Shown one piece after another: positions 37,340 through 51,499 of a stretch of DNA of 64,000 nucleotides (within the stretch, counting starts at the first letter, position 1; every line of letters starts with the position of its first letter). The DNA is taken from assembly GCA_003133205.1 (NCBI GenBank), contig PKWK01000347.1, forward strand, positions 1 to 64,000, read 5' to 3'. The stretch is from Granulicella sp. (GTDB lineage: Bacteria > Acidobacteriota > Terriglobia > Terriglobales > Acidobacteriaceae). A model generated the notes under the pieces. That model did no database searches. It was not told the origin of the DNA and saw only the letters and a list, made by a program, of their open reading frames with translations. The position numbers were made by a program, and so were the translations under genes.

Positions 37340-39811
37340 TTACACCCCTGGCGGAGTTTTTGTGGCCGGCCCAGCTTTTCGCTGGACGCGCCGCCCCATC
37401 GCCAGCCGGAGATAGGAAGACCGGCTGGCACCGAGCATGAGCGTAATCCCCACCACCAGCAGCGCAATCGGCCAGGTGGCGCGGCTGTGAAAGAAGTCCT
37501 GCTGCAAACGCACGATTCCGATTGCCAGGAAGAACAGCCCGGTGGCGAAGAAGTTCTTCATCTGTTTCGGGATGCTGCCGAAGACAAACGCGCACGCCAC
37601 AATCGGCAACAGAATCTCAAATGTCCTTGCCTCGCGCCGCATTGCGATTTGCGCGGGCGATTCGTCCCAGAGCCGGGACGCTTCGAGCCCCAGCAGGAGC
37701 AAGGACGTCATAACGTGTCCCGGAATGACGAACCGGAAGGACTTGGCCACCATGCGCAGTTGGGAGGAGTGGAAGCGCTCGAAGACGCTCTGCAGGAGCA
37801 GATAGATTCCCGCGTTGATGATGAAGAGGTACTCGATTTGCCCACGCGTCCACGGCGCCACGGACTGCAGCCACTTGGCATAGGGCTCGTGGAAGAGGGC
37901 CACGCCGCTGAGCGCTGCGAATGTGAAAGTGACGGCCAATGGATAGAAGTAGCGGGAATCGGCGCCGCGACCCGAGCGCTCGAGTGCGAACGCGGCCACG
38001 AAGAAAGCGAGGGCGATCGGAATCAGGTGGAAATAGATCCTGCCGGGGTCGTTGTCGAACCATTCCAGCATGCCGAGGCGGAGCAAGGTGACCAGGCTGA
38101 ACAGGGCCGCCATGACCGCAAATACGAGCGAGAAGACGGAGCTGCGCGTGAACTGCCGCAGCCACACATATACGGGAAGGGAAAGCAGGAGTGCCCACCA
38201 CAGTTGCGCATTGGTGGTTTTCTTGAACGAATCGAAGCGGTAGAAAAGTTCGAGGTCCTGGCGGCCTTTTGTGAACGCCGAGAAGATGCCGTATTCGCCC
38301 ATGGTCACGAGCAATGCGACCGGCAACAAAAGACAGAACGCAAGCAGGTATGCGATGGAAAAACGGAATTGCCCGGTCTTCCAGCTTCGGATGCCCAGAT
38401 ACGCAGTGGGTACGGCAACGGCACTCACTACGAATACCGAGAGAGGGCCCGAAAGTGCAGGGACCTTAAACAGGAAGACCAAGGCTGCCCCGACGACCAG
38501 CAGCCACGCGCCGAGGTAGAGGCTGACCTGAGAGAACGACAGCCTCCGCGTCTCCATGATCCACGCGTCCTCGGGCTCGGTAAGGCGGCCGTATGCCTTG
38601 CGCAGCGCGTCGTACTCCGAATCGGAGACGACCTGGTCGTTCTTCCAGCCGTCCAATTCCCGCAGGTGCCCTTCGATCCGGCCGGCGATCAGGCGGGAGT
38701 AGGAGGCCGGCACACCGAGGACCTCCTGCCCGGCGAGATAACGCTCAATGTCCTCGGCCATTTCGCGGGCGGAATTGTAGCGCTCGGCAGGATTCTTCTC
38801 GAGAGCCTTCAGGCAGATGTTCTGGAGCGCGCGTGGGAGTGAGGAGTTCAGGCGGCGCGGCAGGACCGGTTCGCGATCGCGAATGGCCCCGATCAGTTCC
38901 ATGGGGCTCTCTCCGTGGAAGGGGAGCGATCCGGTGAGCACCTGGTAGAGGATTGTTCCGAGGGAAAAGACGTCGCTGCGCGGATCGAGGGAGGTATCGC
39001 CGCGAGTCTGTTCCGGCGAGAAATAGTCCGGCGTGCCGACGATGGCACCGGCGTGGGTGACGCGACTTTCCAGGTCGCCGACTTCGAGTGCGAGTCCAAA
39101 ATCGAGCAGCTTGGGATCAAGGTCGGGCCCGACCAGGATGTTGGCGGGCTTGAGGTCGCGGTGGAGAAGGTTGTGCTGATGCAGGAACTCGACCGCGAGA
39201 ACAACCTTCTGCACCAGTTCAACTTTTTGCCGCAACGGCAACGGGCGCGCCACCTCGGTGAGTGGACTCCCCTCCAGGTACTCCATTACAAAATGGGGCG
39301 TTTCGTGGGGTTCGCCGAGGTTGTAGATCTGGACGATGTTGGGATGGCTCAGCCGGGCCATGGCGCGGGCCTCGCGCATGAAACGCTCGCGAAGGGTTGG
39401 ATGATTTGTGTATTGCGCCTTCAGGGTCTTGATGGCGACCTTGCGCCCCAATCGCTCATCTACGGCAAGAAACACCCGGCCCATTCCGCCGGATCCGATC
39501 TCGCTGAGAATCCGGTTGCCGGAGAGCCGGCCGATGGGTAATTCGTGGGAGTCCACCGCTTCGCTCTCGGGTGGGCACTCGGTGAAGACATCCAACTCGT
39601 GCAGCGTCTCGATCTCGCGACGCAACGCGGCTTCAAGACCAGGGTGCCGCCTGCAGAAGCTGCCGATGTCGACAGGATGTTCGCTCGATATCAGGTCAAC
39701 GTAGTCCGCGAGTGCCTGGGCAAGAGCATGTTCGGCGTCCGTGTCCTGGGATGGAGAATTGTCCCCCAGGTTCTCGGCACTTCGATCTCCGCTCTGGTTG
39801 GTACGGTTCAC
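37340..39811 (-). CDS. Membrane-anchored Ser/Thr protein kinase
   Basis: 823 aa. After ~95 residues the kinase domain shows ILSEIGSGGMGRVFLAV (P-loop), VAIKTLK (Lys ~128), HRDLKPANILVG, LLDFGLAL, GTPDYFSPEQTRGD and SDVFSLGTILYQ. From ~450 to the end there are about a dozen hydrophobic segments (LYLGAWLLVVGAALVFLF onward), so it is a polytopic membrane kinase. The GTG at 39811 overlaps the sigma-factor stop (GTGA), which fixes the start; the open frame further upstream is antisense-like and Arg/Gly-rich. Direct coupling to an ECF sigma gene suggests the kinase controls that sigma factor. Confidence 0.88.
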   Translation of the reverse strand: MNRTNQSGDRSAENLGDNSPSQDTDAEHALAQALADYVDLISSEHPVDIGSFCRRHPGLEAALRREIETLHELDVFTECPPESEAVDSHELPIGRLSGNRILSEIGSGGMGRVFLAVDERLGRKVAIKTLKAQYTNHPTLRERFMREARAMARLSHPNIVQIYNLGEPHETPHFVMEYLEGSPLTEVARPLPLRQKVELVQKVVLAVEFLHQHNLLHRDLKPANILVGPDLDPKLLDFGLALEVGDLESRVTHAGAIVGTPDYFSPEQTRGDTSLDPRSDVFSLGTILYQVLTGSLPFHGESPMELIGAIRDREPVLPRRLNSSLPRALQNICLKALEKNPAERYNSAREMAEDIERYLAGQEVLGVPASYSRLIAGRIEGHLRELDGWKNDQVVSDSEYDALRKAYGRLTEPEDAWIMETRRLSFSQVSLYLGAWLLVVGAALVFLFKVPALSGPLSVFVVSAVAVPTAYLGIRSWKTGQFRFSIAYLLAFCLLLPVALLVTMGEYGIFSAFTKGRQDLELFYRFDSFKKTTNAQLWWALLLSLPVYVWLRQFTRSSVFSLVFAVMAALFSLVTLLRLGMLEWFDNDPGRIYFHLIPIALAFFVAAFALERSGRGADSRYFYPLAVTFTFAALSGVALFHEPYAKWLQSVAPWTRGQIEYLFIINAGIYLLLQSVFERFHSSQLRMVAKSFRFVIPGHVMTSLLLLGLEASRLWDESPAQIAMRREARTFEILLPIVACAFVFGSIPKQMKNFFATGLFFLAIGIVRLQQDFFHSRATWPIALLVVGITLMLGASRSSYLRLAMGRRVQRKAGPATKTPPGV

Positions 39812-40407
39812 TCTTTCCTCTTGCCCATCGCACGCAGACGCTGGAGAGCGCGGTGCAGCAAGACCGCGACCGCCTCGCGGCTTCTGCCCATCTGTGTTGC
39901 CATCTCCGCAGAGGAAAGTCCTTCTACCTTGGCCAGGAGGATCGCTTCCCGATAGTCGGGCGGCAGAGCGTCCAATCGCGCGAGCAGATTCCGGATGCTC
40001 TCGTTCTGCATCAGGATTCGGCTTGGAGTGGTTGGATCGGCCGGTTCCGGTCCGTCGGGGTTGCTGGCGGACCGAAAGCGCACCAACTCCACCGCGCGGC
40101 GCTTTTGCCGCGCCTGCGAGCGGGCCTCGTCCGCGACGAGATGGTCGGCGATACGGGAGAGCCAGCTCATGAAACTGCCCGGACAACGGTAGGTGAAGCT
40201 TCCGATATCCTTTGAGGCAGCGAGAAATACTTCCTGCAGGATGTCGTCCACTTCGACGCGCTCACGCAGACGTTCACTCAACTTGTAGCGGATGAGTACG
40301 GCCAACCGAGGCCTGTAGGCCGCAAAGAGCTGGCCGAAAGCGGTCTCATCTCCCGCGCGGAACCTCTCGACCAGATCAAATGTGGATGTAAAGGACGACA
40401 CACCCAT
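39808..40407 (-). CDS. ECF-type RNA polymerase sigma factor
   Basis: 199 aa. Region 2 is visible in FDLVERFRAGDETAFGQLFA and VEVDDILQEVFLAASKDI. Region 4 is LDALPPDYREAILLAKVEGL, SSAEMATQMGRSREAVAVLL. It resembles the ECF groups paired with Ser/Thr kinases in Planctomycetes and Acidobacteriota, where no anti-sigma gene is present. ATG 40407 has GGGAG 6 nt upstream and starts just before region 2. It is the first gene of the sigma-kinase-lipoprotein set. Confidence 0.88.
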   Translation of the reverse strand: MGVSSFTSTFDLVERFRAGDETAFGQLFAAYRPRLAVLIRYKLSERLRERVEVDDILQEVFLAASKDIGSFTYRCPGSFMSWLSRIADHLVADEARSQARQKRRAVELVRFRSASNPDGPEPADPTTPSRILMQNESIRNLLARLDALPPDYREAILLAKVEGLSSAEMATQMGRSREAVAVLLHRALQRLRAMGKRKE

Positions 40408-40439
40408 CTGCAACTCCCGGTTATTGGCCCGAGTATACG

Positions 40440-40532
40440 CCAGCGGCAGAGGCGGCCGGATTCGAGGCGCGGGGAAATGCGCTGGAGCTGAATCTCGACC
40501 TGAACAAGATGGCGTCGATGACTTCGAAGTAG
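40440..40532 (+). pseudogene. Orphan gene tail, copy 2
   Basis: The frame reads GNALELNLDLNKMASMTSK then TAG, matching the tail at 36590-36640 ([19 protein letters not shown]) in both protein and DNA, and in the same orientation. It has no start. Confidence 0.4.
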
Positions 40533-40642
40533 CTAGAGCCTCTTGGAGTTGCTGTGTCTGGCAAGACGGAACCAGAACCGGTTTGTTTCCCAACCCACAG
40601 CTTCTGAAACAGCGCTGTGTGATCAACGGCCTGCGTGCACAT

Positions 40643-41278
40643 TCAGGCAAATAGGCTGTCGTATACAGCAAATGTCCGCTCAACCATTCGAGAATTTGGA
40701 AAGTGGTCAAGGGCTCGCTGGCGCCTTGCGATACCCATTGCCTCCCGTTTCCGGCCATCATGAATCAATTCTCCCACCCGCTGTGCAAGTTCGGCAGGTG
40801 AGGCGGGAGGAACGAGCCAACCTGTTTCGCCATTCTGCACCAACTCACAAAGTCCCTCAACGGCGCTTGCAATCACGGGCAAACCTGCGGCCATTCCCTC
40901 CAATGCCGCTACACCAAAGCCTTCGTCCAGAGATGGCAAAACGAAAATGTCCCAACCTGCCATGACAGACGGCAGGTCCTCTCTCCAACCGAGGAAGGAG
41001 ACAATGCCAGATACGCCGAGTTGGCGACTTTTCTGTTCCAAAGCACCTCGTAAGGTACCACCGCCTGCGATTTCTAAGCGGAGGTCAGGAAACTCAGGTG
41101 CGAGGACGGCTAGTGCCTCGATGAGGTAGTTAAGTCCTTTGATCAATTCCAAGCGACACGCCGTTCCGATTACTACTCCTGCGTGTGCCGGGCGTGGAAC
41201 AGAAAAGTCGGATACGTTGATCCCGGGATATATCACCACGGCATTTGGGTCTTTGGAATAATCCGCTATAACTCGCAA
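40643..41278 (-). CDS. Group 1 (GT4-like) glycosyltransferase, C-terminal fragment
   Basis: 211 codons in this frame hold the nucleotide-sugar-binding half of a GT4-type glycosyltransferase: VIYPGINVSDF, IGTACRLELIKGLNYLIEAL, LRLEIAGGGTLRGAL, FVLPSLDEGFGVAALEGMAA (EX7E motif) and LPVIASAVEGLCELVQNGE. The N-terminal half is in the frame of 41130-41696, so the gene is broken by a frame change at about 41290. It lies at the distal end of the peptide-modification cluster. Sugar donor and acceptor are unknown. Confidence 0.75.
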   Translation of the reverse strand: MRVIADYSKDPNAVVIYPGINVSDFSVPRPAHAGVVIGTACRLELIKGLNYLIEALAVLAPEFPDLRLEIAGGGTLRGALEQKSRQLGVSGIVSFLGWREDLPSVMAGWDIFVLPSLDEGFGVAALEGMAAGLPVIASAVEGLCELVQNGETGWLVPPASPAELAQRVGELIHDGRKREAMGIARRQRALDHFPNSRMVERTFAVYDSLFA

Positions 41279-41696
41279 TTGGCTTTGAGTACGTCTCGCC
41301 TAGGCAAGTCGCAACTGGGCGCGACAACCCCAGTGAATTCCGAAGCACGCCGTGAAGATTGCGCACTATCCGTGCGCCAGTAAGCAGATGTCCCATACCA
41401 GTAAGCAAGCGTCCTCCAGTGTGCTGATGAATGACACTGAATTCGATCGAACGCAGCAGTGCCGCATACCGTGCCGACCCCCAAGGATCTCGCGCACTAC
41501 CGCTCCAATTGATGCAGGTCGATTTGACACCCACTTGCTGCAGGCGCTCGGCAAGCTCGCCCTCTCGAAGAAAGCAAGCGTGGATCTCGTACCTTGCCGG
41601 ATCGACTGCAACAGCCAAGCTTTCAAGCATTCGAAAAATGCCCATCCCAGCTGGTTCAGCTGTACCCAAAACATGCAGGACTCGTCGCGGTTTCAT
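41130..41696 (-). CDS. Group 1 (GT4-like) glycosyltransferase, N-terminal fragment
   Basis: ATG 41696 begins MKPRRVLHVLGTAEPAGMGI, the acceptor-binding Rossmann half of a GT4 enzyme. It continues with HACFLREGELAERLQQVGV, SVIHQHTGGRLLTGMGHLL and ARIVRNLHGVLRNSLGLSR, and then loses similarity at about 41290. The rest of the enzyme continues in the frame of 40643-41278. The distance from the LHG segment to VIADYSKDP looks short for the family, so a small internal deletion may accompany the frame change. Confidence 0.7.
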   Translation of the reverse strand: MKPRRVLHVLGTAEPAGMGIFRMLESLAVAVDPARYEIHACFLREGELAERLQQVGVKSTCINWSGSARDPWGSARYAALLRSIEFSVIHQHTGGRLLTGMGHLLTGARIVRNLHGVLRNSLGLSRPVATCLGETYSKPIASYSGLFQRPKCRGDISRDQRIRLFCSTPGTRRSSNRNGVSLGIDQRT

Positions 41697-42019
41697 CGGA
41701 TTGTTTGCCTGGGCATGCGATGTACTTTCCACACTCGATTCTGAAAATCGGGTTCTATTCGCATTGTATTGCGCTGATAGCGCGATGTGGTTTCCGCTTC
41801 CCAAGAACCAATTCTTCAACGATCACATTGGTCGTGGGAACATTGCATCTGAACTGTGTCGCCTCCGGAACCGATTATCTGAGCACAGCTAGGCAATTAG
41901 GAGAGAAGTATGACGCGGCCCTTGGATCAAGGGAGTCTTTGCCACAGCTTTCGCCAGGACCCATTTGGCGTTTACTGACAAAATTGACACGCCAAGGCAG
42001 ACCAAGAGTTGCGAGTGGG
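41697..42019. other. Intergenic between glycosyltransferase and deacetylase
   Basis: 323 bp with no protein-like frame that I can support. An in-frame extension of the glycosyltransferase to 41819 exists but looks random. Confidence 0.4.
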
Positions 42020-42240
42020 CTAATGCGAAAGGAATCGAAAGCGCCGAAGTGCGCTTGCCAATCGCGATCGCAGGCGAATATGTATACGGATCCAATCAAG
42101 CGGGCTCGTGCCAAATGCTGCGCGAAATTCGATGTCGACTAGAGTATCGCCTGGATGGACCATGGTGCGCCTCAGTAGCAGGGGATCTGTCCAGAAATCG
42201 TTCAAGCCTTCTTCGCACGTAAAGGCGAGGGGAAAACTCC
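42020..42240 (-). pseudogene. Polysaccharide deacetylase, C-terminal part in shifted frame
   Basis: From about 42240 the frame reads AFTCEEGLNDFWTDPLLL, RRTMVHPGDTLVDIEFRAAF and an Arg-rich end. This is the expected end of the deacetylase whose NodB core is in the frame of 42202-42687. The two parts are separated by a single frame change near 42235. Confidence 0.6.
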
Positions 42241-42724
42241 ATCTACCGATCCGCGAATCCGATCATCGAAGGCTCCAAAAGGATAAGCAAAAGAGAGAGG
42301 TCTAAAACCTGCTTTGCTCAGGTCCTCTTTTGAGCCTATGAGTTCGTCAGACACTGCGCCGTCGGGAATAGCAGTCAGGTCGGGATGTGTTCGAGTATGC
42401 GCCCCAATTTCAACTCCGCGCGCGGACCAATGTTGAAGTTCCTCCATCGTCATCATGGGCAGGCCGTCCCATGAGGTCACGCTCCCTACTTGCCCGGTGA
42501 TCACAAAGACCACGCTTAGGGAACCGAACTGCTCGAGCACCGGGAAGGCGTGATCGGCAGTGTCTGAATAGGCGTCGTCGAAGGTGAAGATGATCGGTTT
42601 TTTCGGAAGACCCTCGCCGGTCGTGCACCACGCAAGCCATTGTGCGGGCGTTATCGCTGTGTATCCTCGCCGAGGAAGAAGCAGCAAATACCTGTATGCG
42701 AGGTGGCTTTGATGAAAGCGCCAT
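42202..42724 (-). pseudogene. Polysaccharide deacetylase (NodB-like), truncated and frame-shifted
   Basis: The open part contains RGYTAITPAQWLAW, PIIFTFDDAYSDTADHAFPV (the paired Asp of the NodB motif), ARGVEIGAHTRTHPDLTAI (the His-x3-His metal site) and PLSFAYPFGAFDDRIRG. Upstream, KWRFHQSHLAYRYLLL stays in frame back to the radical SAM stop, but there is no start codon or opening strand. A TAAATG junction with the radical SAM gene exists in a different frame, so the native start was probably there. The product would remove acetyl groups from N-acetylated sugars. Confidence 0.65.
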
Positions 42725-43870
42725 TTACAAACATGCTAAAGCTGCCTGTGGCGTGCTAGCTCGTTCCATGACGCCCTGGATCTGCACGAGTCTAGCATTA
42801 GATCGCGTTCGGCCGTGAACCATCATGCCCGCAGTAACCACGCCAGTGCGGGCATAGGATTTTTCGCAGTCCTGACTCGACGGACCGCGCATGTTGCCTT
42901 CCATGTATGCGAGACCTGGGCATCGCGTGCAGGATCCTCCGCCATGCGAACAGGTGGAGCAAACCGGCAAATCGTTCATCGTAATCGATCGAACGTCATT
43001 CATCTGCGGTGAGTGCTTCCAGATGTCGATGAATCTAGTTGTGCGCACGTTGCCGGTGGGGAGCGGGAATTGCACGCAGGGATAAACATCCCCATACGGC
43101 GAGACGTAGCAGAATGTGTGGCTCGCGCTGCATGGCAACGTATCCATGGCGTCCTCCTGGGCGAGCGGCCCGGAGGGCGGGGCGCAGAACTCCTCCGCGG
43201 TGGCGCCCAAGAGGGAAGCATCCCGGAACACTTGTTCAAGATTGGCGCGTTCGATGTTCAAGTTCAGGATTGAACGGTCGCCATCCATCATAGGAGTAAT
43301 GGTAGGGTCGACGGTATACGTAGCGCCTACTTCGGCGGCCAGGGCCTGCACACCGGAATAATCCTGAAAATTATCGCGCATGAGCACGTTGGCGAAGATC
43401 ACCTTGACGCCGCGCTCCACCAGGAGCCTGGCCCCCGCCATTGATTTTTTGAGCGACCCGGGCAGCTTGGTGATGGCGTCATGCACCTCCGGGCGATGCG
43501 AGTACACGCTGATCTGCACGGATTCAGGCGCCAGCGTGTGGATCCGGTCGGCCTCCGCCTCATGGATCATGACCGCGTTGGTCTTCAATTTCACGCAGAA
43601 CATGAGTTGGCGCGCGTGCTCGACAATTTCGAAGAAGTCGCGCCGCATGAGGATTTCGCCGCCGCTGATGGTGAGGAAGAAAACTCCGGCCGCAGCCATC
43701 TGTTCCAACAGATCCTTGATCTCGGCAGTGTCCATCTCGCCGTGGTCGTTGTGATCCAGGTAACAGTGCACGCATCGCTCATTGCAGCGATAGGTCAGGT
43801 CGAGCTGGACGCCGAGCGGAATCCCCAGCCGCAGAGCTGTGCCGCTCATCTCCTGTATCAGTGAACTCAT
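42725..43870 (-). CDS. Radical SAM/SPASM peptide-modifying enzyme (PqqE-like)
   Basis: 381 aa. The radical SAM motif CNERCVHCYLD lies near residue 29, with SGGEILMRRDFF following. A C-terminal SPASM-type cysteine set is present: CSASHTFCYVSPYGDVYPC (residues ~240-265) and CSTCSHGGGSCTRCPG (~310-325). The arrangement is that of peptide-modifying maturases such as PqqE and sactionine or thioether synthases. ATG 43870 overlaps the PqqD-like stop (ATGA). With a chaperone and a small Cys-containing peptide in the same operon, the likely substrate is that peptide. Confidence 0.9.
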   Translation of the reverse strand: MSSLIQEMSGTALRLGIPLGVQLDLTYRCNERCVHCYLDHNDHGEMDTAEIKDLLEQMAAAGVFFLTISGGEILMRRDFFEIVEHARQLMFCVKLKTNAVMIHEAEADRIHTLAPESVQISVYSHRPEVHDAITKLPGSLKKSMAGARLLVERGVKVIFANVLMRDNFQDYSGVQALAAEVGATYTVDPTITPMMDGDRSILNLNIERANLEQVFRDASLLGATAEEFCAPPSGPLAQEDAMDTLPCSASHTFCYVSPYGDVYPCVQFPLPTGNVRTTRFIDIWKHSPQMNDVRSITMNDLPVCSTCSHGGGSCTRCPGLAYMEGNMRGPSSQDCEKSYARTGVVTAGMMVHGRTRSNARLVQIQGVMERASTPQAALACL

Positions 43871-44163
43871 GGCGTCACCTCGATCGGTATGTTGGAGACT
43901 TTCAGGATACCCTCCTGCGCTAAACCTTCCACCAACTTCTCGGCATCGCGCAAGGCTACGTCCCGATCAACTTCGAACTCCGCGCAGACGTGCTGCTCAA
44001 CGATCTCTGAGAGCGGCGTCATGCCGTCTGCCGCCTGCCAGATCGCTGCCGCGGTTTCATTCAAGCTGAACAGTTTTGAATCGCGGGCGGACAAGATCAT
44101 CATCTCTTCACCAATCATCCGAGCTGCGACTTCCCTGGCTCGAGCGATATAAACGGGGCTCAT
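43867..44163 (-). CDS. PqqD-like peptide chaperone (RiPP recognition element)
   Basis: 98 aa matching the PqqD winged-helix fold: EEMMILSARDSKLFSLNETA, AAIWQAADGMTPLSEIVEQH, then DVALRDAEKLVEGLAQEGIL. PqqD proteins bind the leader of a precursor peptide and present it to the radical SAM enzyme. Both ends overlap neighbours by ATGA (44160-44163 with the HprK-like gene, 43867-43870 with the radical SAM gene), a sign of tight co-translation. Confidence 0.88.
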   Translation of the reverse strand: MSPVYIARAREVAARMIGEEMMILSARDSKLFSLNETAAAIWQAADGMTPLSEIVEQHVCAEFEVDRDVALRDAEKLVEGLAQEGILKVSNIPIEVTP

Positions 44164-44975
44164 GCGATTACCTCCCAGACACGAGAATCGGGAACGAAAG
44201 TCAGACGCCGAATCGGAACCGTCCGCACCAGTTCATAAACGGAGTCAAACACTCGCCCGACTAACTCAGAATCGTGTGCAAAAAAGAGGACACTCCCGAG
44301 CAAGGCACGCGTTGCATCCGCGTCGCCGACCGGTTCTATTCGGTTCACCGGACCTTGGGCGAGCAGATACAGCGCAGCGAGTGGCGCGCGCACGTTCTCC
44401 CCCGGCTGCCCGAGTTCTCCCGCAAAGGGAGTGCCGTAGGCAACATACCCGTCGCCTTCGCGGCGGAGATAGGAGATTTCGTCCGTGAGCAGGGTGACAT
44501 CCGGAGGAGCGAGGCGCGAAATAGTCGTTTTGCCAGCCCCCGAGACCCCTGCGAACAGGAATGCCCGGCCATTGCGCACAGCGCTGGCGGCGTGAACCAG
44601 AATCCCGCCCTGCTTGGCGAGCAGCAAAGAATGCAGGATGCGGAACGCGGCGTCGATCGCATAAGGGGTCGCGGCCTGACGAATGTGCCCATGGCGCAAG
44701 GCCGGGTCTAATTCCGCGTGGAAATCACCACGCTCCAGAACCCATCGGCCGCCTTCGAGACGCACGCTCAAGTCTTGGTCGGGGTCGATTGCGCCGTGGA
44801 TCGTGCCGGAAGGAGAGATCTCGACCTCCAACTCGAAGACAGGTTCTGCGGCGGGATTCACGAAGCCTCCATAACGGTTCCCGAGTATCTGAAGAAACTC
44901 CGGGTTGTCCGTACGCACGACGATGGGCATGCCGCCGATCTCGACGACCACGTCGCACACCTGGGCAGCACCCAT
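44160..44975 (-). CDS. HprK-like P-loop kinase
   Basis: 271 aa from ATG 44975, which overlaps the peptidase stop as TGATG; an upstream ATG at 45032 is in frame and possible. Key features are LLAKQGGILVHAASAVRN, the Walker A motif AGVSGAGKTT, TLLTDEISYLRRE (Walker B-like Asp-Glu) and GTPFAGELGQPG. It resembles the C-terminal catalytic domain of HPr kinase/phosphorylase without the usual regulatory half. Such kinases occur in RiPP clusters, for example those of phosphorylated lasso peptides, where they phosphorylate Ser. The peptide here ends in a Ser/Thr-rich tail. Confidence 0.82.
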   Translation of the reverse strand: MGAAQVCDVVVEIGGMPIVVRTDNPEFLQILGNRYGGFVNPAAEPVFELEVEISPSGTIHGAIDPDQDLSVRLEGGRWVLERGDFHAELDPALRHGHIRQAATPYAIDAAFRILHSLLLAKQGGILVHAASAVRNGRAFLFAGVSGAGKTTISRLAPPDVTLLTDEISYLRREGDGYVAYGTPFAGELGQPGENVRAPLAALYLLAQGPVNRIEPVGDADATRALLGSVLFFAHDSELVGRVFDSVYELVRTVPIRRLTFVPDSRVWEVIA

Positions 44976-45436
44976 CAATTGACCCACGACAGTTTCGACC
45001 GTCTGCGCAGGCTGAGCAGTATCCGTGTGCATAGCTCCGAGTGTCGCACGATCGAGGAGCCGATGCGATGCCACCAAACCCTGGTCGGGGCCACCGGGCG
45101 ACCGTCCCGCAGAATGGAAGTCACATCACCCAGGATCTCGTCATGGCGGAATGGGGGGTCATCGAAGCGAAGCGAATCCCCACGAGTGATGACACCATCG
45201 CCATGTTTCCCGATCAGCCGGTGCGCGACAAACGCCTGGTTGCGGTAGCACAAGATAATCCGGCCGGTGCGCAGTTCGGATGCGCTTCGCCGCCGCACGG
45301 TCAGGATGTCGCCAGGCCAGACCGAGGGGAGCATGCTGGTTCCGGTGACTCGCAAACGGACTTCTCCAAATCGGCGAATGACCTCCGCGGTGAGGTCGCG
45401 TTTGGCTGCATCTTGCAACTCTCCGGTTAGGTCCAT
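44975..45436 (-). CDS. S24/S26 peptidase, ER/archaeal signal-peptidase-like
   Basis: 153 aa. The Ser motif VTGTSMLPSVWPGD lies near residue 31, then VAHRLIGKHGDGVITRGDS near residue 71. A His in place of the bacterial Lys, followed by TRGDS, resembles the Ser-His type of signal peptidase (Sec11-like) more than bacterial LepB. No membrane anchor is evident. The start is only 3 bp after the precursor-like gene stop, so it is the natural candidate for removing a leader peptide. That is inference. Confidence 0.8.
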   Translation of the reverse strand: MDLTGELQDAAKRDLTAEVIRRFGEVRLRVTGTSMLPSVWPGDILTVRRRSASELRTGRIILCYRNQAFVAHRLIGKHGDGVITRGDSLRFDDPPFRHDEILGDVTSILRDGRPVAPTRVWWHRIGSSIVRHSELCTRILLSLRRRSKLSWVN

Positions 45437-45439
45437 CGG

Positions 45440-45619
45440 CTACGAAGTCTTCCGGTTGCTATGGCACGATCCCTGCGTGGACTGCACCTTGCCGCAGCTC
45501 AACGCTCCTGTTTCAAAGAGGTGTTCGTGGCGAAAAGTGGGCTTCGCGTAGGGCTTCCTGAGGGAACCCTGGTCTTCCGCCGCTGATGTAACCTGATCCG
45601 TCTGCTCCGATTCGTTCAT
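45440..45619 (-). CDS. Putative RiPP precursor peptide, 59 aa
   Basis: ATG 45619 has GAGGA upstream; a frame open to 45643 adds 8 residues without a ribosome binding site. The leader is acidic (MNESEQTDQVTSAAEDQG), then KPYAKPTFRHEHLFETGALS, then a C-terminal core CGKVQSTQGSC followed by HSNRKTS. The core has two Cys and is rich in Ser, Thr, Gln and Asn. Its position as first gene of the peptidase-HprK-PqqD-radical SAM operon, its size and the leader/core polarity support a ribosomally made, modified peptide. The modification (thioether, other cross-link, phosphorylation) cannot be decided from sequence. Confidence 0.75.
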   Translation of the reverse strand: MNESEQTDQVTSAAEDQGSLRKPYAKPTFRHEHLFETGALSCGKVQSTQGSCHSNRKTS

Positions 45620-45718: not shown

Positions 45719-47671
45719 TTACGGCACTGATTGCGATGTCTGCACCGCGCACCCTCCGAAACCGCTCCCTGAGCCTCCAGTTGTTCCCGCGCAGAACTCG
45801 TCGGCCAAGGGCGTGAAGTAGATCTGGGATTCTGGTGAAGGTGAAGTGGCTCCGCTTCCCGCCGTATTGTCGATGACGATGCCGCTGGAGCCGCTGGCTG
45901 ACGCGATCCCCGCGTAGGCCGTGGTGGGTACGGACAATGTGCCAGGTGTAGTGGAGGTGCCCCCGGTGGCAACGATGAAGTTGTACACGCATGCGCCCGT
46001 GCACGCGGCGGAGAGATCGGTGGTAGTGAGAGTGCCAAGCGCGCTCACGCTGAGATACATATAGTCGTTGGTGCTGCCGCCGCTGCCCCAGATTTCGGTG
46101 ACCGGCGAACAGGTCGCAGTGCCGGAAGTCAAGGGTGTGATGGCTATGCCGGCAATGCCGACTACGTTTGGGCTGGCCACGATCCCACCGTCGGCTTGCA
46201 AGGGCACGTACGACAACCTCGGTACAGAGGAAGCCGCTGGGGCGCAGCCCCAAAGATTTCCCGTTGTTCCCTCCGTGCCAACCAGGTAAATTTGGTCGAA
46301 CGCTCCGTCGTACATGGTGGGGGTCGTGGTGGTCGCTTTGCCGTATACAGATTCTTCGCCGCAGTTTGTTCCCGACCAGGCGCTCACGCTAGTCGGATTG
46401 CAGGCTCCGTTGCCTATGGTTGCGTTACTGGCAGCGAACTGGAAGACACCGCTGCACCCAAACCCGGCGGCCCCGGGGCGGCAGCCAGCGTTGCTTCTAG
46501 TGTTTGCATCCCCCCCCACGAACACATAGACCTTCTCGGTGGTGGAATCGACCATGGGACCGTCGGCGATGCCAAAGGTGACGGAGGCATGGGTAAGCTT
46601 GCTGCTGGTCATCTGGTGAACGGCGGTAAGGGCATTATAGGAGTAAAGGAATCCGCCCGAGTCGGCCACAAAGATGTTTCCGGATGTCCCGGAATCGTAT
46701 ACCGGGCTGGTCAGCACATTGCCGCTCACCGAAATCGGCCAGCCGCCGGTGGTGACTTCGCCGGGAGTTTCATTGAACACTCCAGTGAATTTGTGGAGTG
46801 TTCCGGAAGCGTCGCCCACGTAGAGAGTGTCGGAGTCGTAATCGTAAAACGGCGCGGAGATTATGTCTTGATTGCCATTCTGGAAGGCAACGCTGATCAG
46901 GCAGGAGCCAACCGCTGGGCAGTTGGTAGCGTTCCAGGCGGTGTTCAACACGGCGCCAGCGGTGGTATTCGTGTACTCCTTGTCCGGGGTATAAGCCGCG
47001 GCCGGAGTGCCTTGGCTCGCGTGCCAGGCGAGGATGCGCAATACCGCAGCAGCACCCGGGGTTGGGTTCTCGATGAATGCAATCTTCGTCCCGTCTCCTG
47101 AGATGACTGTAGAGGTAAGGGCCGCGCCTGTTCCGGTGAAGTAAGCCCAGTAAACCGAAGGCACCGTTCCGCTGCAGTCGGAGTCGTACAGATTGCTGTA
47201 CGCAACGATGTTAGCCTGCCCGGCCGAGACGCCTGCCGCCCCGGTATTGTAGGCGACCCAGTCACTGCAACTCGAAGTAGTGGTATCGAAAGTGAACTTT
47301 GCGGGGTACTGGCCGGCACCTACCGTGGCGCCGGGTCCCATGTCCATGCTCCAGTCAGTCTTCAGTACCTGCCCTCTCCGATGGCCCCGTTCCGGCACTG
47401 GCCGCTGCCGCAGGCTCCGCCTCAACTGCTGGATCTTGTAGCGCCGGTCGTTGACGATCTTGCTCCACTTGCCAACCGTCCGGTTCCGCATAGCGTCGTC
47501 GAATGTGCCTGGATTGGAGAAGAGAGCGTGGTGGTGACTCCAATCTTCAGGAACGCCGACGATGACGCCCGGGGCCTGTTGCCCCCGGGCTGGAACGGCG
47601 ACCGCAGAAAGCATCATCAGCATCAGAATGGCAATCCATAACTTCAAGGAAGAAGCTTTTGTACTCTGCAT
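45719..47671 (-). CDS. Secreted repeat-rich protein, paralogue 1 (propeller-like)
   Basis: 650 aa with a signal peptide (LWIAILMLMMLSAVAVPARG). The N terminus carries VGVPEDWSHHHALFSNPG, shared in form with paralogue 2 (DWTHHH). The bulk is Gly/Thr/Ser-rich with repeated beta-like strands (SAPFYDYDSDTLYVGDASGT; TSPVYDSGTSGNIFVADSGG; DGPMVDSTTEKVYVFVGGD), suggesting a beta-propeller. The C terminus has ESQIYFTPLADEFCAGTTGG. There is no sorting signal that I recognise. It lies 99 bp upstream of the precursor gene on the same strand, so it may be the operon's first gene or a separate unit. Function unknown. Confidence 0.75.
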   Translation of the reverse strand: MQSTKASSLKLWIAILMLMMLSAVAVPARGQQAPGVIVGVPEDWSHHHALFSNPGTFDDAMRNRTVGKWSKIVNDRRYKIQQLRRSLRQRPVPERGHRRGQVLKTDWSMDMGPGATVGAGQYPAKFTFDTTTSSCSDWVAYNTGAAGVSAGQANIVAYSNLYDSDCSGTVPSVYWAYFTGTGAALTSTVISGDGTKIAFIENPTPGAAAVLRILAWHASQGTPAAAYTPDKEYTNTTAGAVLNTAWNATNCPAVGSCLISVAFQNGNQDIISAPFYDYDSDTLYVGDASGTLHKFTGVFNETPGEVTTGGWPISVSGNVLTSPVYDSGTSGNIFVADSGGFLYSYNALTAVHQMTSSKLTHASVTFGIADGPMVDSTTEKVYVFVGGDANTRSNAGCRPGAAGFGCSGVFQFAASNATIGNGACNPTSVSAWSGTNCGEESVYGKATTTTPTMYDGAFDQIYLVGTEGTTGNLWGCAPAASSVPRLSYVPLQADGGIVASPNVVGIAGIAITPLTSGTATCSPVTEIWGSGGSTNDYMYLSVSALGTLTTTDLSAACTGACVYNFIVATGGTSTTPGTLSVPTTAYAGIASASGSSGIVIDNTAGSGATSPSPESQIYFTPLADEFCAGTTGGSGSGFGGCAVQTSQSVP

Positions 47672-47991: not shown

Positions 47992-50082
47992 ATGGAGGCG
48001 AGTACGAACGATACGACGTGTTACTCTTGCAAGGCAAGCATCGCTTGGGTGATCTTCTGTGCCCTTTCGGTTTCTCCCGCAGTCCTTCACAGCCAAACAG
48101 TTGAGAAACATGTGACGCTGGGGATCACTTCGGATTGGACGCATCATCATGTCCTATATCCGTATTCGAAGAGCTATTCGGTAATGGCTCGGGTTCAGAA
48201 AGATCCGCGCTGGGTTCACGACTGGTACACGCGGCATCCGGAGGCTTGGTGGCGGAATGGCCGTCGCAACCTAGACAATGCAAAGAAGGGAAGTCACAGG
48301 GACTGGAGCTATTCCCTGGGGACGACCAGCTTTGAGCCTTTGTTCGACTTTTCCTTTTCCATCGGTTCTCAGACCGGAAACGGAAGCCTGAATGTGTCGG
48401 ATCAGAGCAATGGTCAGTACCTCGCCATCGCCGGCAGCCTCACCGTCGACGGCATCTACGATGTCGGCACTTACCCTCTCTATCCAGGCGGTCCGAGCAT
48501 CGTGACCAGTCCAAGCGGAGCCTTTTTTTACGACAATCTCCTCTTCCCATCATATCCATCGATCAATCCGTCGATCGATGTGGATGGACTTCTCTTCCGC
48601 AACAGCAGCGGCTTTGAAGTCAACCTCTGGGGCAATGGCGCCAACGCCTACGAGTATGACGATTCGGGTTATGCACACGACAACACGGGGGCGCCGTTCA
48701 CCTTAAATATCGATCCGGGCGGCGGCCAGACCTTCCCGGCCATGTTTGTGTTTGACGTGACTGCAACTCCCAGTTGCACGAACGACTTCGTGGTGATGGG
48801 AATCCCTTCGAACCCGGCTGCGGGCGGCCAGGCGAACATCATTGGCCTAAACAATCTCTACAGTGGGCCGGCATCGACCGGCTACTGTCCGGGAACCGGA
48901 CCGACAGTGAAGTTCGCATACGCATCAGGAACGGGACAGGTTCCGGCCAGCGTGGCTCTTTCTCAAGACGGAGGACGAATCGCTTACGTCGAAACTCTGC
49001 AGACCGGGAGTTCCTATTTTCATGTTCTGACTATTGGCACGACGGGCAACAACGGTTCCAGTGCGACAGCGGGAGCGGTCCCGGGAACTGGGAACAACGC
49101 TTCGGATACACGGGTTCTGCTATCGCCGGACGGAGGAATCACAAACCAGAGTTCCACAAACAGCGTCTTCGTCGTGTACACGACGAACGAAGCGAGTGAC
49201 GTTGCCTACGCGACAACGTATAGCACGCTCCAAGGTGGCTCTGGCTATCTTTACAAGCTCGGCAATGTGTTTAACGGAAGCGCGACCCCGACGATAGTCT
49301 GGGGCGTTCCAATCAACGCGATTCCATCGACACCGGTGTACGACTCGGTATCAAATAAGGTGTTCTTTACGGATAGCGACGGGCGTGTCGACTATGTGAC
49401 GGACACTGGCTCCTCACCGTCTGTCGTTTATAGCTCGGTGCTGGCCAGCGGAACCACGTCCGAGAATCCGGTTGTGGTCGATAGCACCAATCAGATGATT
49501 TACGCTTCCTTCAACTCCAACGGAACAAACGCCATCGTAGTGCAGGCCCCCACAAGTATGGCGAGCACCGTCTCCGTACCCGTGGGCACTGCGACTGCAA
49601 CCTACACAGGGCCTTACAGCCCGGACTTCAACAACGCCTTTTACACAGGATCGGGAACACCTCTGATGTACGTTGCCGGCACGGGCACCGGAACGCTTCC
49701 GACCCTTTACGGGATTGGATTCGACGGTAGTGGCCATTTGAATCCGAGTAGCGTCAGCACGGTAGCTCTGGCTACAGGGATGGCGGATTCGTCGCCGGTT
49801 ACGGAGTTTTATAACGCTTCACTTAGCAAGGACTACCTCTTCGTTGGAGTTACGAACAACTGCGTAGCCACTGCGGGAGGGACATCCGGATGCGTCTTGA
49901 GTCTGGACATCACCAACGGGTTTCCGTCCGTCGGCGCCGGCAGTACTGCACTTGCTGCCCCTGGAGGTACTACAGGCATCGTCATTGACAACGACAGTAC
50001 ACTCGCGCAAGCCTCCAGCATCTATTACGCGACCAAGAGTGGGTCAACCCTAGTCAAGGCAACTCAGTCCGGGTTGAATTGA
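47992..50082 (+). CDS. Secreted repeat-rich protein, paralogue 2, with inserted PEP-CTERM-type domain
   Basis: 696 aa. A hydrophobic N terminus (IAWVIFCALSVSPAVLHS) is a likely signal peptide. DWTHHHVLYPYSKSYS and the propeller-like C-terminal part match paralogue 1. Residues ~111-228 have no counterpart there: FDFSFSIGSQTGNGSLNVSD, DNLLFPSYPSINPSIDVDGL, LFRNSSGFEVNLWGNGANAY. These resemble the secreted domain found in many PEP-CTERM proteins. No PEP-CTERM anchor is present. This looks like an in-frame domain insertion. Function unknown. Confidence 0.75.
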   Translation: MEASTNDTTCYSCKASIAWVIFCALSVSPAVLHSQTVEKHVTLGITSDWTHHHVLYPYSKSYSVMARVQKDPRWVHDWYTRHPEAWWRNGRRNLDNAKKGSHRDWSYSLGTTSFEPLFDFSFSIGSQTGNGSLNVSDQSNGQYLAIAGSLTVDGIYDVGTYPLYPGGPSIVTSPSGAFFYDNLLFPSYPSINPSIDVDGLLFRNSSGFEVNLWGNGANAYEYDDSGYAHDNTGAPFTLNIDPGGGQTFPAMFVFDVTATPSCTNDFVVMGIPSNPAAGGQANIIGLNNLYSGPASTGYCPGTGPTVKFAYASGTGQVPASVALSQDGGRIAYVETLQTGSSYFHVLTIGTTGNNGSSATAGAVPGTGNNASDTRVLLSPDGGITNQSSTNSVFVVYTTNEASDVAYATTYSTLQGGSGYLYKLGNVFNGSATPTIVWGVPINAIPSTPVYDSVSNKVFFTDSDGRVDYVTDTGSSPSVVYSSVLASGTTSENPVVVDSTNQMIYASFNSNGTNAIVVQAPTSMASTVSVPVGTATATYTGPYSPDFNNAFYTGSGTPLMYVAGTGTGTLPTLYGIGFDGSGHLNPSSVSTVALATGMADSSPVTEFYNASLSKDYLFVGVTNNCVATAGGTSGCVLSLDITNGFPSVGAGSTALAAPGGTTGIVIDNDSTLAQASSIYYATKSGSTLVKATQSGLN

Positions 50083-50359: not shown

Positions 50360-51493
50360 TCAGCGCCGGATGGCGTCTCGGAGCAATCGCAAAGGACGGA
50401 ACAAACGGACCTGCCAGACTCGATGACACCCGAATCTGGCAGCAAACTCGTAGTCCGGTTGGATTACGCGGTCCAGCAGTATTTGAAGGTGCCTCAATCG
50501 CCGACGCAGGCGATGGCCGGGAAGCTCTATCTCCAAATAGAACGAATGCAGTGAGCGCCAGTCCAGCGGTTCGCTGGGTTGTGTGAGCAGCCGATGCCAC
50601 AAGCGATCCGCGAGGCTGTCCAAATGCCTGAACTGCACTGGCGACGCACCCAGGAAGGACGGCGCGCTGATCTCGGGCTGAAGGCGGCGCGCCATCGCCA
50701 GGCCAAGGACCAGGAGGCTACTGCGTTCAGCGACCTCTGGTCGAGCCTGTACTGTCTCTGACATGTCCAGTTTCTCAAACGCCAGGCAAAGGTCCAGGAT
50801 AAGACTGAGGCGCTCGAAGCGGTGGCGGACACCGTGGAGACAGAGGAAGAGTAATTCGTCGCTCGGGGCAAGTTGCCAGCAACGCTGCCCCTGAAAGACG
50901 GCCGGCTGTACACGCCGCAAAACGCTTTTGATATGGACGTTGAACGCCAGAGGATTATCTACATCATGATGCAACTCGATGGTAGTGCGACCTCTGTACC
51001 ACTGGCGATGGTAATCGTCAGGTGTGTCGGGAATGAACTCAAGTACAGAGAGCACGGCTTCGGCACGAGTCAGATCGTCTTTGGAGACGAGCAAATCCAG
51101 ATCGTGGCTGACGCGGAGTGCGGCTTCTCCGAAGAGCCGCTCCGCCAGGAAAGGCCCCTTGAGCGGAACCACCACAATACCCAGTTGTTCGAAGGCTCGC
51201 AGGATACTCTTCAACTCCGAACTCCAGTAGAACCCAGCGATGGCAGCATCGCGTTCTATCGTGTTGAGGCGACTGCGCAGGCTTGGACTAGCTGACGTCT
51301 GCTGGACGCAGAGACGAGCCACCCATGGGAGGATTTGTTCCTCTTCCGCCAACGCGAGCGCTTGTTCCCACTCCGCCTCGTCGTGAAGGTCGACGCTGCG
51401 CCCGCGCAGGAGTCCCAACAGACCCTGCATGCCTGGTCTCATCAGGATGCCTTGCCTAACTTCACTTCCATCCACAAAACGCTCACATGCCAT
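50360..51493 (-). CDS. Nucleotidyltransferase family protein (NTP_transf_5-like)
   Basis: 377 aa. The nucleotidyltransferase signature is VVVPLKGPFLAERLFG, then ALRVSHDLDLLVSKDD with the paired Asp near residue 148, and further on TTIELHHDVDNPLAFNV and FLCLHGVRHRFERLSLILDL. Proteins of this family recur in clusters with PqqD-like chaperones, HprK-like kinases and glycosyltransferases, so I place it with the peptide operon at 45.6-42.7 kb, from which the secreted paralogues now separate it. The start is uncertain: TTG 51499, ATG 51493 and ATG 51439 are all possible. Confidence 0.78.
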   Translation of the reverse strand: MACERFVDGSEVRQGILMRPGMQGLLGLLRGRSVDLHDEAEWEQALALAEEEQILPWVARLCVQQTSASPSLRSRLNTIERDAAIAGFYWSSELKSILRAFEQLGIVVVPLKGPFLAERLFGEAALRVSHDLDLLVSKDDLTRAEAVLSVLEFIPDTPDDYHRQWYRGRTTIELHHDVDNPLAFNVHIKSVLRRVQPAVFQGQRCWQLAPSDELLFLCLHGVRHRFERLSLILDLCLAFEKLDMSETVQARPEVAERSSLLVLGLAMARRLQPEISAPSFLGASPVQFRHLDSLADRLWHRLLTQPSEPLDWRSLHSFYLEIELPGHRLRRRLRHLQILLDRVIQPDYEFAARFGCHRVWQVRLFRPLRLLRDAIRR

Positions 51494-51499
51494 CTCCAA

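Follow-up and report, generated by a model that had tools for sequence, protein, structure and literature searches.

We analyzed a 64,000-nucleotide (nt) stretch of Granulicella sp. DNA (contig PKWK01000347.1, positions 1 to 64,000; here called the window), which carries a compact cassette of five minus-strand genes that we consider a candidate locus for a ribosomally synthesized and post-translationally modified peptide (RiPP). The first gene of the five (45440..45619) encodes a 59-amino-acid peptide with a leader containing KPYAKPTFRHEHLFET, a predicted core, GALSCGKVQSTQGSCHSNRKTS, and a C-terminal serine; GAGG precedes its ATG. It is followed by a gene for a Sec11/archaeal-type S26 serine peptidase, the predicted leader peptidase (44975..45436), recognized by sequence profiles and invariant residues. 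Next come a 271-amino-acid kinase of the HprK/PEPCK fold, the predicted precursor kinase (44160..44975), assigned by a structure model and a weak sequence match; a discrete PqqD-like RiPP recognition element (RRE; 43867..44163; Pfam PqqD, 1.4e-16); and a predicted radical S-adenosylmethionine (SAM)/SPASM peptide maturase (42725..43870; Radical_SAM, 2.3e-19; SPASM, 2.5e-10, by Pfam/NCBIfam). The junctions from the peptide gene to the radical SAM gene are a 3-bp gap (TAG-CCG-ATG), TGATG, ATGA, and ATGA. A first annotation of this stretch, made from the letters without database searches (the sequence-only reading), had reported these five open reading frames (ORFs) and junctions, and direct reading of the DNA confirmed them. 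Pfam and NCBIfam scans gave no family for the window peptide. The S26 protein scores just or well below the cut-offs of the S24/S26 and archaeal-type signal peptidase models, and the kinase is weakly HprK-like by sequence, with a Pfam/NCBIfam match that runs mainly through the P-loop.

A contig search with the radical SAM protein returned 107 relatives, the best 80 of which were kept; with the window these make 81 loci, all of which contain the radical SAM gene by design, since it was the search query. Peptides were identified with a pattern that demanded Y, P, F, A or S, C, K, and C in order, followed by a short tail, but that left free the E, T, L, and G, the exact Y-to-F spacing, and the terminal Ser. 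Full-motif peptides were found in 64 of the 81 loci, and all share the motif YxxP...F-E/V-T/V-xALxCGK...C...S. The Y-to-F spacing is 11 in every one, and the leader ends in FET (49 peptides), FVT (8), FEV (6), or FVI (1). Within the core, A, L, and CGK are each present in 63 peptides, position +3 is Leu in 63 and Val in 1, and nine residues separate the two cysteines in 57. In the window peptide, the cysteines are Cys42 and Cys52, the CGK lysine is Lys44, and the last residue is Ser59. That last residue is Ser in all 64, and no other hydroxyl residue of the core is invariant; across 62 aligned rows this Ser is encoded by four codons (TCC 27, TCG 18, TCA 10, TCT 7). The sequence-only reading had predicted homologous small ORFs beside the same four genes with a conserved CGK and second Cys, which is what we found; it had also expected a variable tail, which fails at the last residue.

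The peptide is also conserved at the codon level, the further point on which that reading had said its proposal would turn. The proportion of nonsynonymous differences (pN) was below that of synonymous differences (pS) in all 2016 peptide pairs, although the pairs are non-independent and pS is often saturated; for the 25 pairs of lowest pN, pN/pS was 0 to 0.54. There is little constraint on the N-terminal part (median pN 0.65, pS 0.72), whereas the motif and core are constrained (pN 0.30 versus pS 0.75). The small ORF is thus a real, conserved gene under purifying selection. It belongs to a large family: a profile search of a protein database gave at least 7309 peptide clusters at an E value of ≤0.01 (among 7995 scored candidates), and phmmer with the single window peptide gave 11 relatives. 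The best 120 database relatives listed all end in Ser, although, being the best-scoring, they are non-independent. NCBIfam models run against 41 members of the family gave one weak actinodefensin match (0.0064), which we took as chance, and a zinc-knuckle match of the peptide profile in the Protein Data Bank (PDB), at an E value of 9.3, was judged likewise.

The four proteins encoded after the peptide each have invariant residues. In the S26 protein, Ser34, His72, Asp87, and Asp93 are invariant in 24 of 24 sequences; its profile matches SEC11A/C at about 4e-7, and no membrane anchor is apparent by eye. The radical SAM enzyme has Cys29, Cys33, and Cys36 (CxxxCxxC) and seven cysteines of the SPASM part invariant in 24 of 24 sequences, and its nearest solved relatives are SkfB (4.3e-24) and PqqE (2.1e-16). 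For the kinase, His128, the Walker-A Lys149, Asp165, and Asp235 are invariant in 22 of 22 sequences and could represent the His-Lys-Asp-Asp set described for lasso peptide kinases. Because the kinase profile matched the PDB only weakly by sequence (PEPCK, 0.022), we made a structure model (mean predicted local distance difference test score, 89.4). The model matches phosphoenolpyruvate carboxykinases (best 9.8e-11) and HPr kinase/phosphorylase (best 3.6e-5), which gives the protein, as modeled, the PEPCK/HprK fold expected of an HprK-type kinase. In the RRE, Asn35 is present in 21 of 21 sequences and Asp73 in at least 90% of the 21, and both align with the Asn/Asp positions of TfuB1 and TbiB1.

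These genes travel together. The order peptide, S26 peptidase, HprK-like kinase, RRE, radical SAM/SPASM enzyme is kept in 58 of 60 five-gene loci, and a full-motif peptide is present in 57 of the 62 loci that have an S26 gene and upstream sequence (the misses are L040, L041, L048, L074, and L075). A tree, built by a quick method and with partner labels taken from anywhere in each locus, shows that the cassette spans Acidobacteriota and Pseudomonadota. A short conserved precursor with a leader, lying beside modifying enzymes and an RRE, is the general mark of a RiPP system, and this cassette bears it.

The closest known system is that of the linear polyphosphorylated peptides (LPPs) of Bacillota (Popov et al., Nat Commun 2026, PMC13381572). 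According to that report, the RRE LppB binds YxxP in a leader of the form YxxPxVLxHQxIxFET, the HprK-like kinase LppK phosphorylates Ser at +3, and the peptidase LppS, which needs its Ser-His-Asp set, cuts after FET when the leader is presented by LppB. The two systems have in common a discrete YxxP-type RRE, a Sec11/SipW-type Ser-His-Asp peptidase, an HprK-like kinase, a nucleoside triphosphate (NTP) transferase, FET at the leader end, and an ATP-binding cassette (ABC) exporter in part of the loci. Asn35 and Asp73 of the RRE would correspond to N33 and D70 of LppB, the residues that hold the Pro and Tyr. The leaders agree in YxxP (64 of 64, as demanded by our pattern) and FET (49 of 64), but the spacing is 11 rather than 13. 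Other features set them apart. The LPP main text names no radical SAM enzyme, whereas the cassette has one; the LPP phosphorylation site is absent from the cassette, in which +3 is Leu or Val; and the C terminus described for LPPs is variable, whereas the cassette peptide has two cysteines and an invariant terminal Ser. LPPs are reported to be restricted to Bacillota and to use an MsbA-like exporter. The cassette, in Acidobacteriota and Pseudomonadota, has a β-propeller protein as partner, with a nucleotidyltransferase near 19 of 42 well-flanked loci and an ABC-2-type permease near 12 of the 42. We conclude that the cassette works like an LPP system but should not be filed as one, because Ser+3 is absent, a radical SAM enzyme is added, and descent from LPPs is no more than a possibility. 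The sequence-only reading had found no class that it could name for this combination. That judgment needs amending for the kinase, the Sec11-type peptidase, the discrete RRE, and the FET leader end, which define the LPP class as reported in 2026; it holds for the radical SAM enzyme, the two-Cys core, and the invariant terminal Ser, which are new relative to LPPs.

We consider it probable, though well short of certain, that the cassette makes a RiPP by LPP-like logic, with radical chemistry at the Cys/CGK core, phosphorylation at the C terminus, and removal of the leader after FET. By analogy with homologues, the PqqD-like RRE would bind the leader through YxxP. The radical SAM enzyme would act on the A-L-x-C-G-K...C segment of the core, most likely to form a thioether with one cysteine or both, and the HprK-fold kinase would phosphorylate the C-terminal Ser. 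Where it is present, a PF14907 nucleotidyltransferase may add a sugar or nucleotide to the phosphate. The Sec11-type Ser-His peptidase would then cut the leader after FET, with the leader presented by the RRE. The sequence-only reading had proposed much the same roles for the RRE, leader peptidase, kinase, and radical enzyme; they fit the known relatives and stand as predictions from sequence.

Several observations weigh against this proposal. A full-motif peptide is lacking from 17 of the 81 loci (L003, L008, L009, L024, L032, L040, L041, L048, L056, L069, L070, L073, L074, L075, L077, L078, and L080); several of these are truncated by contig ends, but L032, L040, L048, L070, and L074 are not so accounted for, L003 has a partial peptide that ends in Ser, and the peptide copies of L041 and L075 have a disrupted frame. 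A second peptide match in genome G078 (L100; E value, 1.3e-14) runs past CGK into other sequence; we regard the beginning of the cassette as disrupted in this copy and left the match out of the counts. The nucleotidyltransferase lies near fewer than half of the well-flanked loci. The RRE profile is nearer to the lasso peptide RREs TbiB1 (4e-8), PbaB1 (4.7e-6), and TfuB1 (6.5e-6) than to LppB (0.0048), and the window RRE alone failed to match LppB at an E value of ≤1. As to the leader cut, the Y-to-F spacing differs from that described for LPPs, so that the cut could be shifted; FET is replaced by FVT, FEV, or FVI in 15 of 64 peptides; and the A-L-[A/S/T] that precedes the Cys is likewise suited to signal peptidase cleavage. 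A cut after FET would leave a 22-residue core, with a calculated [M+H]+ of 2236.056 unmodified, 2234.040 less 2 H, 2316.022 with HPO3, 2314.006 with both changes, and 2476.059 with both and a hexose; a cut ahead of the Cys would leave 18 residues (1907.881 unmodified). The LPP kinase targets Ser+3, so the assignment of the terminal Ser draws on paeninodin-type kinases and on conservation. A plain disulfide could stand in place of a radical cross-link, and the product, its mass shift, and the activity of each enzyme are all predicted.

The sequence-only reading had set the limits of the unit at 42725..45619, and here it fell short: the operon is larger than five genes, with a propeller gene upstream and a nucleotidyltransferase gene nearby, both of which it missed. 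The upstream gene (45719..47671, minus strand) encodes a β-propeller ("DWS") protein with a hydrophobic N terminus, which we take to be exported; its stop lies 99 nt from the peptide start, and it is probably the first gene of the operon. A divergently placed relative of this DWS propeller follows (47992..50082, plus strand), and beyond it lies an NTP_transf_5 (PF14907) nucleotidyltransferase gene (50360..51499, minus strand; 1.4e-46), the presumed counterpart of LppN/PsmN. A hidden Markov model census found PF14907 proteins in 32 of the 81 loci. A propeller gene is directly upstream of the cassette in 30 of 52 testable loci, and an ABC permease takes that place in 11 others. In most well-flanked loci, the window included, the product may act with the co-encoded propeller, and it would exit through an ABC transporter where one is present. 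It may even be that the leader recruits radical SAM chemistry and a serine kinase to opposite ends of the core and that the mature peptide is a ligand or cofactor of the exported propeller, with the ABC exporter as the alternative partner, a full scheme that we offer only tentatively.

The chief rival explanation departs from our proposal in what the product is for: the modified peptide would belong to the exported propeller, as a small subunit or a bound cofactor, rather than being a free natural product. Quinohaemoprotein amine dehydrogenase is a model for a peptide that serves as a small subunit or cofactor of a propeller. Besides the frequent upstream propeller gene, this idea draws on two loci (L067 and L068) in which the peptide, encoded on the other strand from the four enzymes, has propeller genes as its neighbors, and on a propeller structure model that resembles BamB and YxaL. 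It fits less well with the 10 of 42 well-flanked loci that have an ABC transporter without a propeller and the 5 of 42 that have neither, and none of the propellers scanned received a redox domain from Pfam. We regard it as possible but as the poorer account. To us the most interesting side of the locus is the propeller: its role, its alternation with an ABC exporter, and the free or bound state of the modified peptide.

A second rival accepts a RiPP but places the phosphate elsewhere: the kinase would act on another residue of the core (for example, the common Thr/Ser that lies five residues beyond the region of the CGK lysine) or on a partner protein, and conservation of the terminal Ser would have some other cause, for instance that the radical SAM enzyme or the propeller recognizes it. 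The LPP kinase does act on an internal Ser (PMC13381572). In our alignment, column 73 is Thr or Ser in 54 of 64 peptides; it is not invariant, however, whereas the last residue is. Kinases of the paeninodin type phosphorylate a C-terminal Ser, and PsmN adds a hexose to the phosphorylated Ser, as reported in PMC9266682; lasso peptides of the paeninodin/pseudomycoidin type, as described there, share with the cassette the C-terminal Ser (the kinase target in their case), a nucleotidyltransferase, and a discrete RRE, but their leader has WxxP rather than YxxP, and the radical SAM enzyme is on the cassette's side. The terminal Ser also persists in four uncut loci without a local kinase (L016, L043, L049, and L053), but a close kinase is encoded elsewhere in each of these genomes, and in three it belongs to another cassette; in the fourth arrangement, that of L053, DWS, peptide, S26, and radical SAM genes stand together, and the kinase and RRE genes lie elsewhere in the genome beside an ABC transporter. 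Because the LPP Ser at +3 is absent, the terminal Ser is invariant, and the paeninodin-type kinases provide a precedent, we favor the terminal Ser as the kinase site and think another site rather unlikely.

Genome surveys also link the kinase to the peptide. In a 396-genome sample of the Granulicella phylum, 14 genomes had a peptide match at an E value of ≤0.001, six of them strong (E < 1e-14, the center genome included), so the distribution is patchy. In a 149-genome Acidobacteriota sample, which the genome handles suggest lies within the larger one, kinases at E ≤ 1e-100 occurred solely in G001, G028, G078, G089, and G126 (next best, 1.1e-40), all of which are strong-peptide genomes; G270, the remaining one of those six, also has a close kinase. 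The other eight matches are to shorter peptides, mostly of the form MKKxYEKPxIxHxExxEARAVxCxK...C...GPxxS. An HprK-like match at E ≤ 1e-15 exists somewhere in each of these eight genomes, versus 50 of 149 overall. These co-occurrence counts take no account of relatedness, a further point against our proposal. All eight distant peptides end in Ser, and because the profile aligned only as far as position 42 to 53 (of 59), short of that residue, they lend it more independent support. At class level, a sample centered on the Thermomonas genome had 2 matches at E ≤ 0.001 among 274 genomes, one strong (the center genome) and one weak (L101; 6.6e-4), the latter of which may be chance. The kinase relatives at E ≤ 1e-15 in the 50 Acidobacteriota genomes are sometimes found two or three close together (G075:C36, G050:C6, and G086:C116).

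Other known systems share parts of the cassette. SynChlorMet (SCM), an NCBIfam designation for which a literature search found no paper using the name, likewise combines HprK-like (ScmC), PqqD-like (ScmD), and radical SAM/SPASM proteins. The ScmC model matches 22 of 22 kinases and is the best match of the window kinase, but at 36.8 bits against a cut-off of 125; membership was rejected, as the window proteins fall far below the NCBIfam cut-offs for ScmC, ScmD, ScmE, and ScmF. Unlike SCM, the cassette has one radical SAM gene in its conserved set and an S26 peptidase. With the sactipeptide and ranthipeptide maturases SkfB, StsB, and AlbA, the cassette shares a SPASM radical enzyme and a Cys-containing peptide, and SkfB is the best solved relative; unlike them, the window enzyme falls below the listed cut-offs and the RRE is a separate protein. 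Naming of the shared gene families by Pfam and by eye turned up neither a lasso cyclase nor a B2 peptidase, although no search with models dedicated to these two was made. The radical SAM protein also raises the idea that the cassette converts the peptide into a small redox cofactor of the pyrroloquinoline quinone (PQQ) or mycofactocin kind, since its best NCBIfam match is the mycofactocin maturase and PqqE is its second solved relative. We set this reading aside on the cut-offs, which the matches miss by far (131.5 versus 265 bits). Later PQQ or mycofactocin enzymes did not turn up near the cassette, although no search by name was made, and to our knowledge the precursor motif is unlike those of PQQ and mycofactocin precursors; we hold this origin to be very improbable. 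A reading in which the small ORF is not a gene and the four enzymes have a different substrate, at which the five S26-containing loci without a full-motif peptide might hint, has next to no chance of being true, because of the purifying selection and the synonymous codons at invariant residues, and given the size of the database family.

Should our proposal be right, the cassette would bring together radical SAM modification and HprK-type phosphorylation, two peptide chemistries that we found only in separate descriptions; literature searches (bioRxiv and most subscription journals lay outside their coverage) found no RiPP that joins an HprK-like kinase to a radical SAM enzyme. LPP-like logic would also extend beyond Bacillota, and the propeller link would give a handle on the purpose of a peptide family that, for all its thousands of clusters, bears no Pfam or NCBIfam name in the members scanned. 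Two carriers, Granulicella mallensis X5P3 (L022) and Thermomonas beijingensis RSS-23 (L057), are recorded as named strains and bear no metagenome-assembled-genome label, so these predictions can be tested in culture.

The distant peptides point to a second, shorter Ser-ending family (L092 to L098 and L103 to L109). L103 has two peptides of this type with S26, kinase, RRE, and radical SAM genes, and L106 has an RRE and a radical SAM gene only. For L104, L105, L107, L108, and L109, our profiles found none of the four in the stretch fetched. Members of this family are sometimes away from their enzymes and beside large proteins, the starts of which look like what are presumably FG-GAP/VCBS repeats. 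A third peptide type stands in a cassette (L102:5649-11171) with a nucleotidyltransferase, kinase, RRE, SPASM radical SAM enzyme, and S26 peptidase; the cassette also encodes a protein with an N terminus that, by eye, is like that of a B12-binding radical SAM enzyme.

Downstream of the cassette in the window, all on the minus strand, a polysaccharide deacetylase domain without a clear ATG start (42202-42735) directly follows the radical SAM gene; a tblastn search for it across the 80 related loci gave nothing at E ≤ 1e-3. A family-4 glycosyltransferase (40643-41819) seems to be split into two overlapping ORFs in different frames, an N-terminal part (41130-41819) and a C-terminal part (40643-41278), through either disruption of the gene or a sequencing error. 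Farther along, we identified by eye an extracytoplasmic function-type sigma factor-like ORF (39808-40761) and a large serine/threonine kinase-like ORF with membrane segments (37340-40186).

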